The notes under the pieces: generated by a model
The model's input: the letters and a program-made list of their open reading frames with translations, nothing else
What the model was told of the DNA's origin: nothing
Database searches by the model: none
Position numbers and translations under genes: made by a program
NCBI GenBank assembly: GCA_019636495.1
Contig: JAHBXL010000003.1
Location: 186,001 to 250,000, forward strand
Source of the DNA: Phycisphaeraceae bacterium
Lineage (GTDB): Bacteria; Planctomycetota; Phycisphaerae; Phycisphaerales; UBA1924
Reading direction: 5' to 3'
DNA: 64,000 bases
Part shown: positions 52,494 to 58,936 of the stretch, piece after piece
Numbering within the stretch: position 1 is the first letter of the stretch
Layout of the letters: every line of letters begins with the position of its first letter

Positions 52494-53387
52494 GTGTTGT
52501 TCCGAACCGCGATTGCCCGTGCCCGTCGTCTTGCGCACCTGAAACTCGGAGTGCCGGGGTCGTTCGCGACGCTGCTGCGTCTTGATGCGCTGCCGCGGCC
52601 GCACTACGCGTATGGCGTCTATCACGCCGCGCTGCAGGCGCGGGCGCTGGGCTTGCCGGCGATCAGCGCGATCGAGTTCGGCGTCGCGGGAGGACAGGGG
52701 CTGATCGAACTTGAGCGCATGGGCGATCTGGTGCGGGCCGAAACCGGCGTGGAGGTGAAGGTCTACGGCTTTGGGCTGGCCAAGGGCATGCCGACGCCGG
52801 TCGACCATCGCGACATGTCGTATGTGTGGGCGCCGGGGCTGTTCAAGATGCCGCTGAAGCGGATCCGGTCGCAACTCAAGCGCGGCGAACTGGTGTTGGG
52901 CGATGTGCGTGCGACGGTGCCGACGTTTCGGTCGAAGTTCAATGCGCCGCCGGTGGGGTTCGTCGCGTTCGATCTTGACTATCACTCATCGACGATGGCG
53001 GCATTCGGGCTGTTTCGCGATGAACCGGCGGCCACGCTGCCGCGGGTTTTCTGCTACTTCGATGACTGCATCGGCGATGATGCGGAGTTGCACGGGCCGT
53101 TCGCGGGCGAACTCGCGGCGATCGACGACTTCAATCGCGAGAGCGAGCATCGCAAGATTTCACCGATCTTCGGGCTGCGTCACAAGCGGGTTCTTCCCGC
53201 GGCGTGGAACGACGTGATGTTCGTGATGCACGCGTTCGATCACCCGCGCTACAACGAGTACATCAACCCGCGCTGGAAAGCGCCGGCGCAGAAGCCGGGG
53301 GACGGGCCGCGTGCCGAGGCCGCGCCGGAGGTGGTCGTTCGGCCGGGGCTCAATGGGAAGGTGACGCCGCGACGGGTTACTTCTTGA
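52494..53387 (+). CDS. Unknown protein with a Rossmann-like N-terminal region
   Basis: 297 aa. AISAIEFGVAGGQGLIELERMGDLVRAETG and VKVYGFGLAKGMP resemble a class I methyltransferase motif I with its acidic neighbour, and VGFVAFDLDYHSSTMAAFGLFRD a following strand, but no full SAM-binding set is visible. The C-terminal part has CYFDDCIGDDAEL and a Pro-rich tail. AAAGGAG at 52484-52490 supports GTG at 52494 or TTG at 52497. It overlaps the convergent membrane gene by 11 bp. Family not certain. Confidence 0.55.
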   Translation: MLFRTAIARARRLAHLKLGVPGSFATLLRLDALPRPHYAYGVYHAALQARALGLPAISAIEFGVAGGQGLIELERMGDLVRAETGVEVKVYGFGLAKGMPTPVDHRDMSYVWAPGLFKMPLKRIRSQLKRGELVLGDVRATVPTFRSKFNAPPVGFVAFDLDYHSSTMAAFGLFRDEPAATLPRVFCYFDDCIGDDAELHGPFAGELAAIDDFNRESEHRKISPIFGLRHKRVLPAAWNDVMFVMHAFDHPRYNEYINPRWKAPAQKPGDGPRAEAAPEVVVRPGLNGKVTPRRVTS

Positions 53388-53700
53388 ACGCCCGCACCCA
53401 GCCGAGCACCATGAGCACGAGCCCGCTGAGAACGCCCATCACGATGAAGCCGACCAGCGCGCCGAAGATCGCGCCCAGGCCCTGCATGTATGCGTAACCG
53501 ATGCCCGCGCCGACCAGCGCGCCGACAACCACGCACGAGCCCTGGAAGATGTAGTCGAACTTGCGGAACGAGGGCATCATGCCCACGGTCTCGGCGACGC
53601 GGTTGTACTGCTCGAGGCCCGACTGCGCCGGCGCGGGCGATTGCAGCGGGCCGGGTGTGGTGGGTGGGGCGGGCGGGTGTGCGGGGGGCTGGTCGGACAT
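53377..53700 (-). CDS. Small membrane protein, two transmembrane helices
   Basis: 107 aa. A Pro-rich cytoplasmic-looking start, then RKFDYIFQGSCVVVGALVGAGIGYAYM (TM1) and LGAIFGALVGFIVMGVLSGLVLMVLGWV (TM2), ending FKK. No known domain. Its start is just downstream of the REP at 53713-53735 and its stop lies within the convergent upstream gene's end. Confidence 0.6.
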   Translation of the reverse strand: MSDQPPAHPPAPPTTPGPLQSPAPAQSGLEQYNRVAETVGMMPSFRKFDYIFQGSCVVVGALVGAGIGYAYMQGLGAIFGALVGFIVMGVLSGLVLMVLGWVRAFKK

Positions 53701-53712
53701 GGGATTCACAAT

Positions 53713-53735
53713 GTAGCACGGGCATCCTGCCCGTG
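53713..53735 (+). repeat. REP-like palindrome (GTAG head), single copy next to RAYT
   Basis: Head GTAG followed by perfect arms CACGGGCA and TGCCCGTG around TCC. It ends 3 bp before the stop of the RAYT gene, with the head on the outer side. An identical 23-nt copy occurs inside mutS at 58680-58702. Confidence 0.85.
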
Positions 53736-53738
53736 CGT

Positions 53739-54431
53739 TTAAGCCGCAGTGTCGGTACTGGCCGTCGCTGGTGCTTCGATCATAGGAGCAAACACGGATT
53801 CCAGTAGCGCCTCACTCCTGCGCCCAACCCAGGGCCAGTCGACGAGTCCCGCGGATGCCGGGTTTCTCAATACATACGCGATCTGCCTCGCGAGGTCCGT
53901 CCGATCCCGTATCAGGTGATCGTAGTACTCGGATTGCCAGAACATGCCGCTTCGACCGAGCAGCCTGTTGGCCTGGAGCGAGGTGAAGCTCTTCCATGAA
54001 TGCAGAACCCCTGGCAACTCATGAGCCGGCAGAGGTTGAAGTATGACATGAACGTGATTCGGCATTACGCACCACGCGAAGATCCTGTATCGCTCAAGGT
54101 CGAAGTGCAGCACCGCATTCTGGATGAGTTCGGCAATCTCCGGCTTGTTCATCCAGCATGCCCCGTGGCCCGCATCGAGGTACCTCTCAATGCGCTCTGA
54201 ATGTAACTCGTCGAGCCTTGTGAGTTCGTAGACCGAAAGTGGTCGACCGAGAGCGGCTGCGCGCTTGACGATGTCCTCTCGCTCCGCAAGCCAACCCCGG
54301 AGCACGCTGGCTGGGAGACTGTCCTCGAGTCGGAACGTGACCGCGTATGCCGCGGACTCGCGGGTCCAGTGCGGGAGTTTGGCGCCGTGGCGCTTCACGA
54401 TGCCGGATGAGATGGCCCGATCTGTGGCCAT
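53739..54431 (-). CDS. REP-associated tyrosine transposase (RAYT, Y1_Tnp)
   Basis: 230 aa. HUH motif in FAWCVMPNHVHVILQP; the catalytic Tyr lies in SEYYDHLIRDRTDLARQIAYVLRNPASAGL, matching the single-Tyr of the RAYT/IS200 family. VTFRLEDSLPASVLRGW and the preceding helix are typical RAYT features. All motifs are intact. The gene is bracketed by GTAG-headed palindromes: one directly 3' (53713-53735) and an array 22 bp upstream of the start (54453-54743). Such arrangement is the REPtron form. It has no inverted-repeat transposon ends or TnpB partner. Confidence 0.88.
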   Translation of the reverse strand: MATDRAISSGIVKRHGAKLPHWTRESAAYAVTFRLEDSLPASVLRGWLAEREDIVKRAAALGRPLSVYELTRLDELHSERIERYLDAGHGACWMNKPEIAELIQNAVLHFDLERYRIFAWCVMPNHVHVILQPLPAHELPGVLHSWKSFTSLQANRLLGRSGMFWQSEYYDHLIRDRTDLARQIAYVLRNPASAGLVDWPWVGRRSEALLESVFAPMIEAPATASTDTAA

Positions 54432-54452
54432 GCGCGGGAGTGTATCGTGGTG

Positions 54453-54743
54453 GTAGCATGGCCATCTTGGCCATGCGGAACCTCTGCACCTTCAAAATGG
54501 CCGTGGTACGGTCGGTTCTGCACGGCCAGGATGGCCGTGCTACTCGGTTTGTGCACGGCCAGGATTGCCGTGCTACTCGGTTTGTGTGCGGGCAAGATGG
54601 CCGGGGTACGGGGAACTTTTCACGGCCAGGATGGCCGTGCTACTCGGTTTGTGCACCTCCAGGATGGCCGTGCTACGCGGCTTGTGCGCGGGCAAGATGG
54701 CCGGGGTACGGGGAACTTTTCACGGCCAGGATGGCCGTGCTAC
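54453..54743. repeat. REP-like palindrome array upstream of RAYT
   Basis: Nine palindromes. The first (54453-54475) has head GTAG on the plus strand with arms CATGGCCA/TGGCCATG. The rest read CACGGCCA-GGA-TGGCCGTG-CTAC or degenerate forms, in the opposite orientation, at 54487, 54521, 54554, 54587, 54621, 54654, 54687 and 54721. Spacing is 33, 33, 34 bp, giving an exact 100-bp super-unit copied twice. The last copy's CTAC head contains the stop codon of the ABC permease gene. Confidence 0.85.
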
Positions 54744-55771
54744 GCCGGCTTCTTGGGCTGGGCCAAAACCGCCGCGAGGATGATGAGCCCTTTCAGCAGT
54801 CCTTGGTAGTACACGTTCACATTCAGCATGTTCAGCATGTTGTTGATGACGCCGAGGATGAGCACGCCCACAACCGTGCCCCACACCCGTCCTGCGCCGC
54901 CCTGAAGGCGCGTGCCGCCGATGACGACCGCCGCGATCGCGTCGAGTTCGTAGAGCATGCCGGTTGAGGAACTCGCCACCGAGTTGGCGCGGCTCGAGAC
55001 CAGCAGCGCGGCGACGCCGCAGCACAATCCGGCGATGGCGTAGACGCTGATGGTGGTGGAGACGATGGGCACGCCCGCGTAGCGTGCGGCCATGGCGTTG
55101 TCACCCAGCGCGTAGACGCGTCGGCCGAACACCGTGCGCGAGAGCACGATGTGCGCGACCGCCGCGAGCGCGAGGAAGACCAGGATGCTGACGCGCAGCG
55201 GCAGATCGTGGCCCTCGAGCCCGAGGCCGGGGAGGGAGATCGTCGCCGAGCCGATGCCGCGATAGTCGGGCACGGCGGAGCGGATCTCGGCGCCCTGCAC
55301 CTGCGCGACGATGAGCGAGCGGAAGATGGCCATGGTGCCGAGGGTTGCGACGAACGCCGCGATGCGGCCCTTGGCGACGAGCAGGCCGTTGAACGTTCCG
55401 GCGAGAATGCCCCCGCCGATGCACACGGCCACGGCCGCCGCGATACCAAGAGCGACGCGCTGCTCGTCTCCCTGCGCGCCGGCGACACGATTCATGGCGA
55501 GAATCGCCGCGCCGCCGACCAGCGCGACCATCGCGCCGACGGAGAGGTCGATGCCGCCGATGAGGATGACGAACGTCATGCCGATCGCGACGATTCCGAC
55601 GAAACTGTTCTGCCCGAGAATGTTGTTGAAGTTGGCCAGCGTGAGAAAGCGGCGGTCCTCGGCGGGCACGTTCATCGCCTCAATGATGGCGGTGCCGGCG
55701 ATGAGCAGCAGCAGCGCGGCCAGAGGGCCGAAGCGTTCGAGGATGCGCGTGAGGCTGGGGGATGGGGGCAT
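54740..55771 (-). CDS. Sugar ABC transporter permease (RbsC family)
   Basis: 343 aa. About nine hydrophobic segments; LTLANFNNILGQNSFVGIVAIGMTFVILIGGIDLSVGAMVAL is the hallmark of RbsC/AraH-type permeases, and VIGGTRLQGGAGRVWGTVVGVLILGVINNMLNMLNV closes the core. Normally needs a double ATPase (RbsA) and a binding protein, but neither is in the window. The stop codon TAG (54742-54740) falls within the head of the last REP copy. Start ATG at 55771; divergent from mutS. Confidence 0.88.
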   Translation of the reverse strand: MPPSPSLTRILERFGPLAALLLLIAGTAIIEAMNVPAEDRRFLTLANFNNILGQNSFVGIVAIGMTFVILIGGIDLSVGAMVALVGGAAILAMNRVAGAQGDEQRVALGIAAAVAVCIGGGILAGTFNGLLVAKGRIAAFVATLGTMAIFRSLIVAQVQGAEIRSAVPDYRGIGSATISLPGLGLEGHDLPLRVSILVFLALAAVAHIVLSRTVFGRRVYALGDNAMAARYAGVPIVSTTISVYAIAGLCCGVAALLVSSRANSVASSSTGMLYELDAIAAVVIGGTRLQGGAGRVWGTVVGVLILGVINNMLNMLNVNVYYQGLLKGLIILAAVLAQPKKPA

Positions 55772-55918
55772 GGCATGGATGGTAAGGGAAAGAAGCAAGG
55801 CGGAAAATCAGCACAGCGCTTGGAGGCAGGGACCCGGGGGAATGGATACGGGATTGTGTGGCGGGCGCTTCCGGATTCGGGGCGTGTCGCGTACGCTGTG
55901 CCCAGATCGCGTAGTGGT

Positions 55919-55979
55919 GCCGGGCACGGAGTGCCGGGCCACCAGGAAGCAGAATCCCGGCACGGAGTGCCGGGCCACC
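55919..55979. repeat. Two REP-like palindromes upstream of mutS
   Basis: Two near-identical units, 55919-55943 and 55956-55979, each with a CCGGGCACGGAGTGCCGGG-type (or CCGGCAC..GTGCCGG) palindrome and a GGCCACC flank; on the other strand this gives a GGTGG head followed by the palindrome. They end about 12 bp before the mutS start and would place hairpins in its leader. Confidence 0.75.
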
Positions 55980-55990
55980 AAGAGAGGCAG

Positions 55991-58936
55991 ATGGCCGACC
56001 CCCGCGACACCCCGGCAATGCGACAGTACTACCGCTTCAAGCGGCAGCACCCGGATTGTCTGCTGCTCATCCGGATCGGCGATTTCTACGAGTGCTTCGA
56101 TGATGATGCGATCACGCTCTCCAAGGCCGCGGGGCTGACGCTGACCAAGCGCACCGAGGGTGTGCCCATGGCGGGCATGCCGTTTCACCAACTCGAGACC
56201 TACCTGCGACGGTTGATCGACAAGGGATACCGCGTCGCCGTGGCCGACCAGATGCAGGACGCGGCGGAGGCCAAGGGACTGATCGAGCGGGCCGTCACGC
56301 GCGTGCTCACGCCCGGCACACTCGTTGATGAAACGCTGCTGGCATCCGATGCCGCGTGCGCGCTCGCCGCGGCGTGTTTTCTTGATTCGGGCGATGCGCC
56401 CGAGGGACGTGTCGCCGCGGCGGTGGTCGAGGTGAGCACGGGGCGGTTTGCGGTGTTCGAGACGACCGCGGGCGCGCTGGCGGATGAGTTCGCGCGGCGG
56501 CAGGTGACGGAGGTGCTGTTTGCGCAGACGGCCGATGGCGCAACGCCGCCGCGGATGAAGGTGGTGCTCGATGCGCTCGGGCTTGCGGGGACGCCGCAGC
56601 CTTCGTGGCACTTCCGTCATGATGAAGCGCTGGAGGCGGTGCTGGCGCAGTTTGGCGTGGCGACGCTGGAGGGGTTCGGGATTCAGCGCGATGACCCGGT
56701 GATCCGCGCGGCGGGCGCGGCGATCCGCTATCTGCGACAGACTCAGGGCGCGGGCGAGGAGGAGGGGGCCAGCGGGAGCGCGAGCGCCGGCACAGGCAGG
56801 AAGCGCGCGGGCACGCTCGCCCATCTGCACCCGCCGCGGAAGGAAGAGAACCGCGGCCACCTGCACCTGGATGCGATCGCGCTGCGCGCGTTGGAGGTGC
56901 TGGGGACGATGCGCGGCGATGTGGGTCGAATCGGCAGCGCCGAGGCCGCGGCGGGGGACGGCTCGCTGGTCGGGATCTTCGCCGACCCCGGCTGTCGCAC
57001 GGCGATGGGTAGGCGGCTGCTGCGCGAGTGGCTGTGCCGACCGTTGTGTGATCGTGCGGCGATCGAGATGCGGCACTCGTGCGTGGCGACGTTGATCAGC
57101 GATCGCCGTGCCGCGGCGGAGTTGGGCGAGGCGCTCGAAGGCGTGCAGGATGTGCCGCGGATGGCAGCGCGGATCGCGATGGCCCGCGCCACGCCGCGCG
57201 ATGTCGTGGGCCTCGGCCGGTCGGTGGGGCAGGTGCGGGTGGTGGCCGACGCGCTGGAGAATGCGCCGGCGTTTGCGGGGCAGTTGGGAGCGCTGCGGAA
57301 GATCGAGGCGGAACTGGGCGGACTGGCGGAGAAGATCGCCGCGGCGTGCGTGGAGGCCCCGCCCGCGCACCTGCGAGAGGGCGGGCTCGTGCGAGACGGG
57401 GTGGATGCCGAACTCGATGAGGCGCGGCTGCTGCAGCGCGACAGCGCGGAGTGGATGGCGCAGTATCAGAAGGACCTGATCGAGAAGCACGACCTGCCGA
57501 GCCTGAAGGTCGGGTACAACAAGATTTTCGGATATTACATCGAGTTGCCCTCGGCGCAGTCGCGACGGGCTCCGGCGGAGTTCACGCGGAAGCAGACGCT
57601 CAAGAGCGCGGAGCGGTACATCACGCCCGAACTCCGTGAGTATGAGCGAAAGGTGACCACCGCCGAGACGCGGGCCATCGCGCGGGAACTGGCGATCTTC
57701 GAGTCCTTGTGCGCCGGCGCGGCCGCGCTCGCCGCGCCGATCACGGCGTTCGCCGACATCGCGGCCGAGTTGGACGTGCTGCTGTGCTTCGCCGACAAGG
57801 CGGCGCGGCGCGGCTGGGCGCGGCCGGAGATCGTGGAGGAGCCGGTGCTGCGAATCGTGCAGGGGCGGCACCCGGTGCTGGATGAGTTGCTGGAGGGCGC
57901 GGGCGGCGGGTTCGTGCCCAATGACATCGAGTTGGGCGGAATCGACGAGGGACAAGTGGGGGGGGCGGCGTGCGGGACGCTCGCGCTCATCACCGGGCCG
58001 AACATGGCGGGCAAGAGCACGTTCATCCGGCAGACCGCGCTCCTGGTGCTGCTGGCACACTGCGGGAGTTACGTGCCCGCCGCGGGCGCGACGATCGGGC
58101 TGACGGATCGGATCTTCACGCGGGTCGGCGCGGATGATGCGCTGCACGCGGGGCAGAGCACGTTCATGGTCGAGATGACGGAGACGGCGCGGATCCTGCA
58201 TCACGCGACGGCGCGGAGTTTGGTGGTGCTCGATGAGATCGGCCGCGGCACTTCGACGCTCGATGGGTTGAGCCTGGCGTGGGCGATCGCGGAGACGCTG
58301 GCGGCGGGCAGTGCGGTCGAGGTCGCTTCGGAAGCACCCTCTCCCCGTGGCTCTGAAAGGGGGGGGCGGGGAGAGGTGGCGAGCCCGTTCGGGCGAGCCG
58401 GTGAGGGGTTCCGTGGCCCGCGCACGCTCTTCGCCACGCATTACCACGAACTGACGCGGCTGGAAGAACTGATGCCCGGGTGTGTGCAAAACCTGCACGT
58501 GAGCGTGCGCGAGTGGGGGGATGAGATCGTCTTCCTGCATCGCATCTTGCCCGGCAAGACCGACCGCTCGTACGGCATTCACGTCGCGAAACTTGCAGGC
58601 ATGCCGACGGGAACGGTGGCGCGGGCGCGCGAGGTGCTGGAATCGCTGGCGGTGCATCAGGCGGAGGGTGTCGACGGAAGTAGCACGGGCATCCTGCCCG
58701 TGAAGGGCGAGGGGGACGCCGAAGGCAATTGGGATTCGGCCGTCAAGCCACGCCGCGGCAAGCGCGTGGATACTTCCCGCATTCCGCCCGCGGGCCAGTC
58801 CGATCAGCTCGCGCTGTTCACTCAGTTCGTGCAGCATCCGGCAGTGGATCAGTTGCGCGAGGTGAAGATCGAAGCACTGACGCCGCTGGAGGCGTTTGAT
58901 ACGCTGCGGAAGTTGAAGGGGATGGCGGGGGAGTGA
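55991..58936 (+). CDS. mutS: DNA mismatch repair protein MutS, with in-frame repeat insertions
   Basis: 981 aa (E. coli MutS is about 850). Recognises mismatches via Phe-Tyr-Glu (32-34 in IGDFYECF). The ATPase carries GPNMAGKSTFIRQ (about 669), LDEIGRGTSTLDG (about 747) and FATHYHELT. Extra segments: a low-complexity insert near residues 255-285; a 25-residue insertion (about 783-807) encoded by a dispersed palindromic element at 58338-58410, placed between the Walker B helix and the FATHY strand; and a REP copy at 58680-58702, about residue 897, in the C-terminal domain. All three keep the frame. GAGAGG upstream supports ATG 55991. mutL is not nearby. Confidence 0.92.
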   Translation: MADPRDTPAMRQYYRFKRQHPDCLLLIRIGDFYECFDDDAITLSKAAGLTLTKRTEGVPMAGMPFHQLETYLRRLIDKGYRVAVADQMQDAAEAKGLIERAVTRVLTPGTLVDETLLASDAACALAAACFLDSGDAPEGRVAAAVVEVSTGRFAVFETTAGALADEFARRQVTEVLFAQTADGATPPRMKVVLDALGLAGTPQPSWHFRHDEALEAVLAQFGVATLEGFGIQRDDPVIRAAGAAIRYLRQTQGAGEEEGASGSASAGTGRKRAGTLAHLHPPRKEENRGHLHLDAIALRALEVLGTMRGDVGRIGSAEAAAGDGSLVGIFADPGCRTAMGRRLLREWLCRPLCDRAAIEMRHSCVATLISDRRAAAELGEALEGVQDVPRMAARIAMARATPRDVVGLGRSVGQVRVVADALENAPAFAGQLGALRKIEAELGGLAEKIAAACVEAPPAHLREGGLVRDGVDAELDEARLLQRDSAEWMAQYQKDLIEKHDLPSLKVGYNKIFGYYIELPSAQSRRAPAEFTRKQTLKSAERYITPELREYERKVTTAETRAIARELAIFESLCAGAAALAAPITAFADIAAELDVLLCFADKAARRGWARPEIVEEPVLRIVQGRHPVLDELLEGAGGGFVPNDIELGGIDEGQVGGAACGTLALITGPNMAGKSTFIRQTALLVLLAHCGSYVPAAGATIGLTDRIFTRVGADDALHAGQSTFMVEMTETARILHHATARSLVVLDEIGRGTSTLDGLSLAWAIAETLAAGSAVEVASEAPSPRGSERGGRGEVASPFGRAGEGFRGPRTLFATHYHELTRLEELMPGCVQNLHVSVREWGDEIVFLHRILPGKTDRSYGIHVAKLAGMPTGTVARAREVLESLAVHQAEGVDGSSTGILPVKGEGDAEGNWDSAVKPRRGKRVDTSRIPPAGQSDQLALFTQFVQHPAVDQLREVKIEALTPLEAFDTLRKLKGMAGE
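58338..58410. repeat. Dispersed palindromic element inside mutS
   Basis: CCCTCTCCCCGTGGCTCTG, a run of G, GAGAGGTGG, GAGCCCGTTCGGGCGAGCC and CGGTGAGGGG. Matches the reverse complement of 41789-41847. It sits in frame, adding residues rich in Ser, Arg, Gly and Glu in the MutS ATPase domain. Confidence 0.75.
58680..58702 (+). repeat. REP copy inside mutS
   Basis: Identical to 53713-53735: head GTAG, arms CACGGGCA and TGCCCGTG. It encodes Ser-Ser-Thr-Gly-Ile-Leu-Pro-Val in frame. Confidence 0.85.

Follow-up and report, generated by a model that had tools for sequence, protein, structure and literature searches.

The window analysed here, a stretch of 64,000 nucleotides from a Phycisphaeraceae bacterium (genome G000), carries a RAYT (TnpA-REP) gene bracketed by GTAG-headed palindromes (REPs). 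The element has one full copy in the genome. Two minus-strand genes enclose it, one for a small membrane protein (53377-53709) and one for an ABC sugar permease (54740-55798). Its features are the following.

53713-53735, plus strand: REP GTAG-CACGGGCA-TCC-TGCCCGTG, a perfect hairpin with its head outward; 3' border of the element
53739-54431, minus strand: RAYT (TnpA-REP) gene, an open reading frame of 230 aa, with HxH at residues 126-128 and Tyr186 as the catalytic tyrosine predicted from sequence; GTAG-contact residues, by alignment, W165, Q166, D171, H172, R175 and N190
54453-54475, plus strand: REP GTAG-CATGGCCA-TCT-TGGCCATG, on the 5' side of RAYT, head facing the gene
54487-54743, minus strand: array of eight REP units repeated every 33-34 nt, heads outward, starting at 54487, 54521, 54554, 54587, 54621, 54654, 54687 and 54721; units 54521-54543, 54621-54643 and 54721-54743 are perfect, the remaining five degenerate
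54721-54743, minus strand: outermost REP, which forms the element's 5' border

The first-pass annotation had placed a complete REPtron, a RAYT between GTAG palindromes, at 53713-54743; these coordinates are exact, and the head of the 3' palindrome points outward as it had stated. It had also described a nine-copy array on the 5' side with mostly outward heads: eight of the nine do face outward, and the unit at 54453 faces the gene. Four of these nine units form perfect hairpins (54453, 54521, 54621 and 54721); the others contain mismatches. The TAG of the outermost head (54740-54742) doubles as the stop codon of the permease gene, whose orthologue in the congener G001 stops with TAA.

The REPs have arms of 8 bp and a TCC loop, with a conserved GTRG head outside the stem. 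Their pattern matches the window 9 times, versus 0.00 expected from 100 dinucleotide-preserving shuffles. A compensated arm change (GGGCA/TGCCC versus GGCCA/TGGCC) had been read as a sign that pairing was kept; it is present, together with a second one (CAC..GTG versus CAT..ATG), and covariation bears the reading out. Among 27 distinct G000 copies and one copy from a family member, G031, 94.6% of cells pair and both-sided change occurs at three pairs; the cells altered on both sides number 16, compared with 4.5 in shuffles, and none of the slid registers approaches this.

The RAYT protein has the HUH motif and single catalytic tyrosine of the Y1 family, as seen in alignment and in its Pfam Y1_Tnp match (1.1e-6, above cut-off). 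Residues H126 and H128 of HxH, W165, D171, R175, Y186, N190 and P191 are invariant in 26 aligned sequences. The residues known to contact GTAG, in E. coli numbering W94, Q95, E/D100, H101, R104 and N119 (PMC6006769), are matched by W165, Q166, D171, H172, R175 and N190, with D at the E/D100 position. Its NCBIfam REP_Tyr_transpos score of 77.5 bits is marginally below the cut-off of 80, a point against the REPtron reading; its IS200 score is 20.4 for a cut-off of 55. The sole sequence match in the PDB is 4er8 (4.4e-6), a structure of the E. coli RAYT in complex with a REP hairpin; in a Foldseek search with an AlphaFold2 model (pLDDT 89), 4er8 again ranks first (1.2e-7), ahead of IS200/IS605 transposases. 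By all three comparisons, the protein is nearer to RAYTs than to IS200/IS605 TnpA.

Other palindromes occur nearby. A GTAG REP of the same family lies in frame within mutS (58680-58702, plus strand), and G001 carries an orthologous, slightly degenerate copy. Upstream of mutS, at 55920-55978, a different hairpin, GTGG-CCCGGCAC-TCC-GTGCCGGG, occurs in two copies, the second of them perfect; its arms also flank a RAYT within miaA of genome G003 (L141), and it has several matches in G001.

Dispersal of the palindromes and their pairing with RAYT genes

Pattern searches of the whole genome found 44-46 REP copies in G000 and none with the reversed pattern, so that the palindromes are not confined to the window: the RAYT is flanked by GTAG hairpins, and those hairpins are dispersed across its genome. 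The GGGCA arm version is dispersed and common to G000 and G001; the GGCCA version occurs in G000 mostly in tandem arrays, in the window and on contigs C14 and C32. The latter two arrays, C14:50918-51971 (period 33 nt) and C32:61565-61684 (period 32 nt), have no RAYT.

The nearest RAYT in the family, in G031, is 62% identical and laid out in the same way, but its hairpin is another one, GTGG-CATCGGCA-TCCC-TGCCGATG. G031 contains 60 copies of this hairpin, and eleven further genomes, G000 included, contain none; the G000 hairpin has a single, inexact match in G031. As in REPtrons, the RAYT gene is matched to its palindrome.

Position relative to genes is similar in both genomes. The head lies at most 60 nt, often 0-4 nt, behind the stop codon of a long frame for 14 of 26 REPs in G000 and 13 of 19 in G031, and stop codons lie on the tail side of two REPs in each (random-position control, 14-15%). 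The dinucleotide CC immediately precedes 11 of the 19 GTGG heads in G031; a CT rule sought before the heads in G000 gave no match to this pattern, and we therefore make no claim on a cleavage dinucleotide. In a REP pair at C30:159972-160311, one REP directly 3' of a stop codon is missing in G001, and the remaining alignment is uninterpretable.

We searched 150 genomes, G000 and 149 relatives, for the G000 REP at up to two mismatches. Matches occur in 16 of them: 44 in G000, 15 in G001 and at most 3 in any other. The annotation had taken equal abundance of the palindromes in genomes without any RAYT as a sign against its reading; in general this is not the case, 134 of the 149 relatives having none, and the exception is G001, where no RAYT match was found despite its 15 REPs. 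Because of this genome, we conclude that REPs can persist without a RAYT. Exact copies number 26 in G000 among the matches listed and 3 of 15 in G001, whose RAYT-less population looks more decayed, though the G000 count is inflated by arrays. As for the proposed extension of such systems to planctomycetes, the GTAG example is real; its novelty is weak, since Planctomycetes and Verrucomicrobia REPs already appear in a 2013 report (PMC3733652).

In the wider clade, strict GTRG hairpins gather around RAYT genes: near 48 of them, 59 lie within 250 nt, versus 5 in the 150 kb beyond, a density about 67-fold that farther out (0.61 per flank versus 0.0005 in shuffles). Heads point outward in 43 cases and inward in 16. 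Both sides carry a strict hairpin at 15 loci, a single side at 6 and neither at 27; these 27 RAYTs count against the REPtron explanation. Within 1.5 kb on each side of ten further Y1_Tnp genes of G000 (L002, L009-L014, L016-L018), no flanking pair of GTAG REPs was found. About half of these ten genes are IS200-like.

RAYT genes in frame inside housekeeping genes

Among the RAYT hit loci of the 150 genomes, tallied by reading, some lie in frame within housekeeping genes. For the first five hosts below, this is the case in 34 genomes, 31 of which belong to the family of the window:

leuS (11): L083-L086, L088-L093, L099
valS (18): L087, L094-L096, L098, L100-L102, L150, L151, L226-L233
rdgB (11): L097, L138, L140, L142-L145, L234-L237
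kbl (1): L139
miaA (1): L141 (G003)
wider clade of the window RAYT, in Verrucomicrobiota and Planctomycetota: isochorismate synthase (L153), nadE (L160), ispG (L169), alaS (L185)

NCBIfam confirms the host in 20 frames, 19 of leuS or valS and one of rdgB; it also confirms single examples of kbl, miaA, rdgB, leuS and valS, and the four hosts of the wider clade. Two more in-frame RAYTs, L189 and L203, have hosts named by eye, apparently a FAD monooxygenase fusion and a DinG helicase.

The break in leuS falls at profile positions ~234/238 in nine genomes (site A) and 520/522 in two (site B), and that in valS at ~359/369. Wherever leuS is interrupted, the genome scores a single LeuS over the cut-off, and only G075 and G009 show a partial second match; no genome showed a second full ValS. 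The valS gene is split by contig ends in G040 and G072, its frame is broken in G047, and stops occur downstream in G039. Nearly all in-frame RAYT copies retain HxH and the tyrosine.

Hairpins were examined in 21 in-frame copies, and a matching outward GTRG pair, often within the same reading frame, surrounds the RAYT in 14: valS 6/6, rdgB 2/2, miaA, leuS site B 2/2 and leuS site A 3/9 (L088, L089 and L099). Two of the 14 pairs are not quite identical left and right: in L096 one base pair differs, and in L150 the stem is shorter at one flank. The six site-A copies without a pair count against the REPtron explanation; in four of them, as in kbl, this search found no hairpin, and in the other two one flank alone has a hairpin.

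An element spliced as RNA, for instance an IStron, is unsupported: Rfam detects neither introns nor any other known RNA in nine loci, of which eight contain in-frame RAYTs. The genomes are mostly metagenome assemblies, and single in-frame cases could be misassembled; as a general account this is unlikely, because the sites recur across many genera. We searched the open-licence literature for RAYTs inside tRNA synthetases and for transposases inserted in frame, and no earlier report emerged. Taken by itself, the window locus adds a member to a known kind; the newer result is the in-frame REPtrons.

Possible mobility of the element and comparison with known systems

Altogether, the element is very probably a REPtron, a gene for an HUH/Y1 single-strand DNA transposase (RAYT) with its cognate GTAG hairpins. 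Direct support comes from the match between gene and palindrome, from the structural constraint that the hairpins show and from their spread across G000. By analogy with the biochemistry of REP_Sm, whose design is GTAG, 8 bp and a 3-nt loop, RAYT would bind the single-stranded REP hairpin, with the GTAG head guiding its choice of cleavage site, and would cut and rejoin DNA via Tyr186. The expected outcome would be REPs scattered chiefly just behind stop codons, with the head facing the gene; the whole unit between outward hairpins may move too.

That an ordinary IS200/IS605 insertion sequence lies here, with the hairpins as its subterminal ends, seems extremely improbable: the HUH/Y1 fold is shared and IS200-like tnpA genes do occur in G000, but sequence and fold both match the RAYT 4er8 best, the IS200 profile score falls well short, and the genome has a single full copy with hairpins dispersed alone, neither multi-copy nor confining its hairpins to its ends. 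We also consider it very unlikely that the palindromes are host RNA hairpins, terminators or mRNA stabilisers, found beside RAYT by chance. Many REPs directly 3' of stop codons would fit such a role; against it, the palindrome sequence changes along with RAYT between genomes, flanks are strongly enriched in hairpins, the GTRG head is conserved outside the stem, and copies sit within reading frames.

Whether the unit itself moves is a closer question. At the orthologous site of G001, the whole REPtron (53674-54742) is replaced by ~76 bp with one degenerate hairpin, between syntenic flanks of 82% identity on both sides; this empty site could reflect an insertion in G000 or a deletion in G001. 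A domesticated, stationary RAYT, a fixed host gene that moves REPs alone, is the published view, as surveys state no evidence of RAYT mobility (PMC8266576, PMC6006769). It would ascribe the G001 state to loss by recombination between flanking REPs, and the in-frame copies to a few old events inherited with losses. G001 indeed keeps the degenerate junction hairpin, 15 REPs elsewhere and the shared mutS REP, so that REPs were present in the common ancestor of the two genomes. We nonetheless regard this account as rather doubtful. One supported RAYT clade (100/99) spans leuS site A, leuS site B, valS, kbl and miaA; forcing the copies of one host together yields trees that are rejected at leuS site A (p 0.0035) and for valS (p 0.0006), and not rejected for rdgB (p 0.17). 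Full-length relatives, at 45-64% identity, occur in four other phyla (Acidobacteriota, Verrucomicrobiota, Sumerlaeota and Peregrinibacteriota). The window RAYT itself falls outside the in-frame clades, together with that of G031, and the wider clade to which it belongs extends over several phyla. With phyla named, the RAYT tree shows some mixing, at a support too low for counting transfers. Near-identical copies within G265, sought as a sign of recent movement, were not found, the copies being just 43-64% identical.

With moderate confidence, then, we suggest mobility of the whole unit between its outward hairpins; this would explain both its absence at the G001 site and the in-frame relatives in genes such as leuS, valS and rdgB. 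These comparative data speak for RAYT movement, of which published surveys saw no evidence. We lean towards a broader picture, in which REPtrons of this kind would be mobile units between an outward pair of GTRG hairpins. Their stop-less variants would enter essential genes in frame (leuS, valS, rdgB, kbl and miaA; in the wider clade nadE, alaS, ispG and isochorismate synthase), recurrently at fixed sites. The fused host protein would stay working and RAYT would keep its catalytic residues, in an intein-like niche without known splicing. This touches on how REPs and RAYTs spread, and raises the question of how essential enzymes put up with a transposase domain. In-frame elements at recurrent sites of single-copy aminoacyl-tRNA synthetases, together with the empty site, make RAYT mobility directly testable.

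Among known systems, the window element resembles REPtron Sm of Stenotrophomonas maltophilia (group 3, subclass 2.5), whose REP of 23 nt consists of GTAG, a perfect 8-bp stem and a 3-nt loop (PMC8266576). The two share this design and W, Q, D (for E100) and R at the GTAG contacts, a likeness drawn from residues and REP design alone, the D residue also occurring in subclass 2.7. They differ in phylum, and in that the window element has sister elements in frame inside genes. With E. coli TnpA-REP (4er8; subclass 2.2), its top match, the window RAYT shares the HUH/Y1 fold and H-x-H, W, Q, H, R, N and Tyr, at only ~16% identity over the fold and with D at E100. The REPs of E. coli exceed this one in length and have mismatches in their stems.

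Within the PVC superphylum, GTAG REPs and REPtrons were reported earlier for Planctomycetes (R. baltica) and Verrucomicrobia (O. terrae), with GTAG/GTGG heads as here and intragenic REPs included; what the available part of that report describes are REPs inside genes, whereas here whole RAYT genes lie inside housekeeping genes (PMC3733652). Rickettsia palindromic elements and inteins are alike in entering essential genes in frame and keeping the frame of the host. The former, to our knowledge, are without a transposase. Inteins are excised from the protein by splicing.
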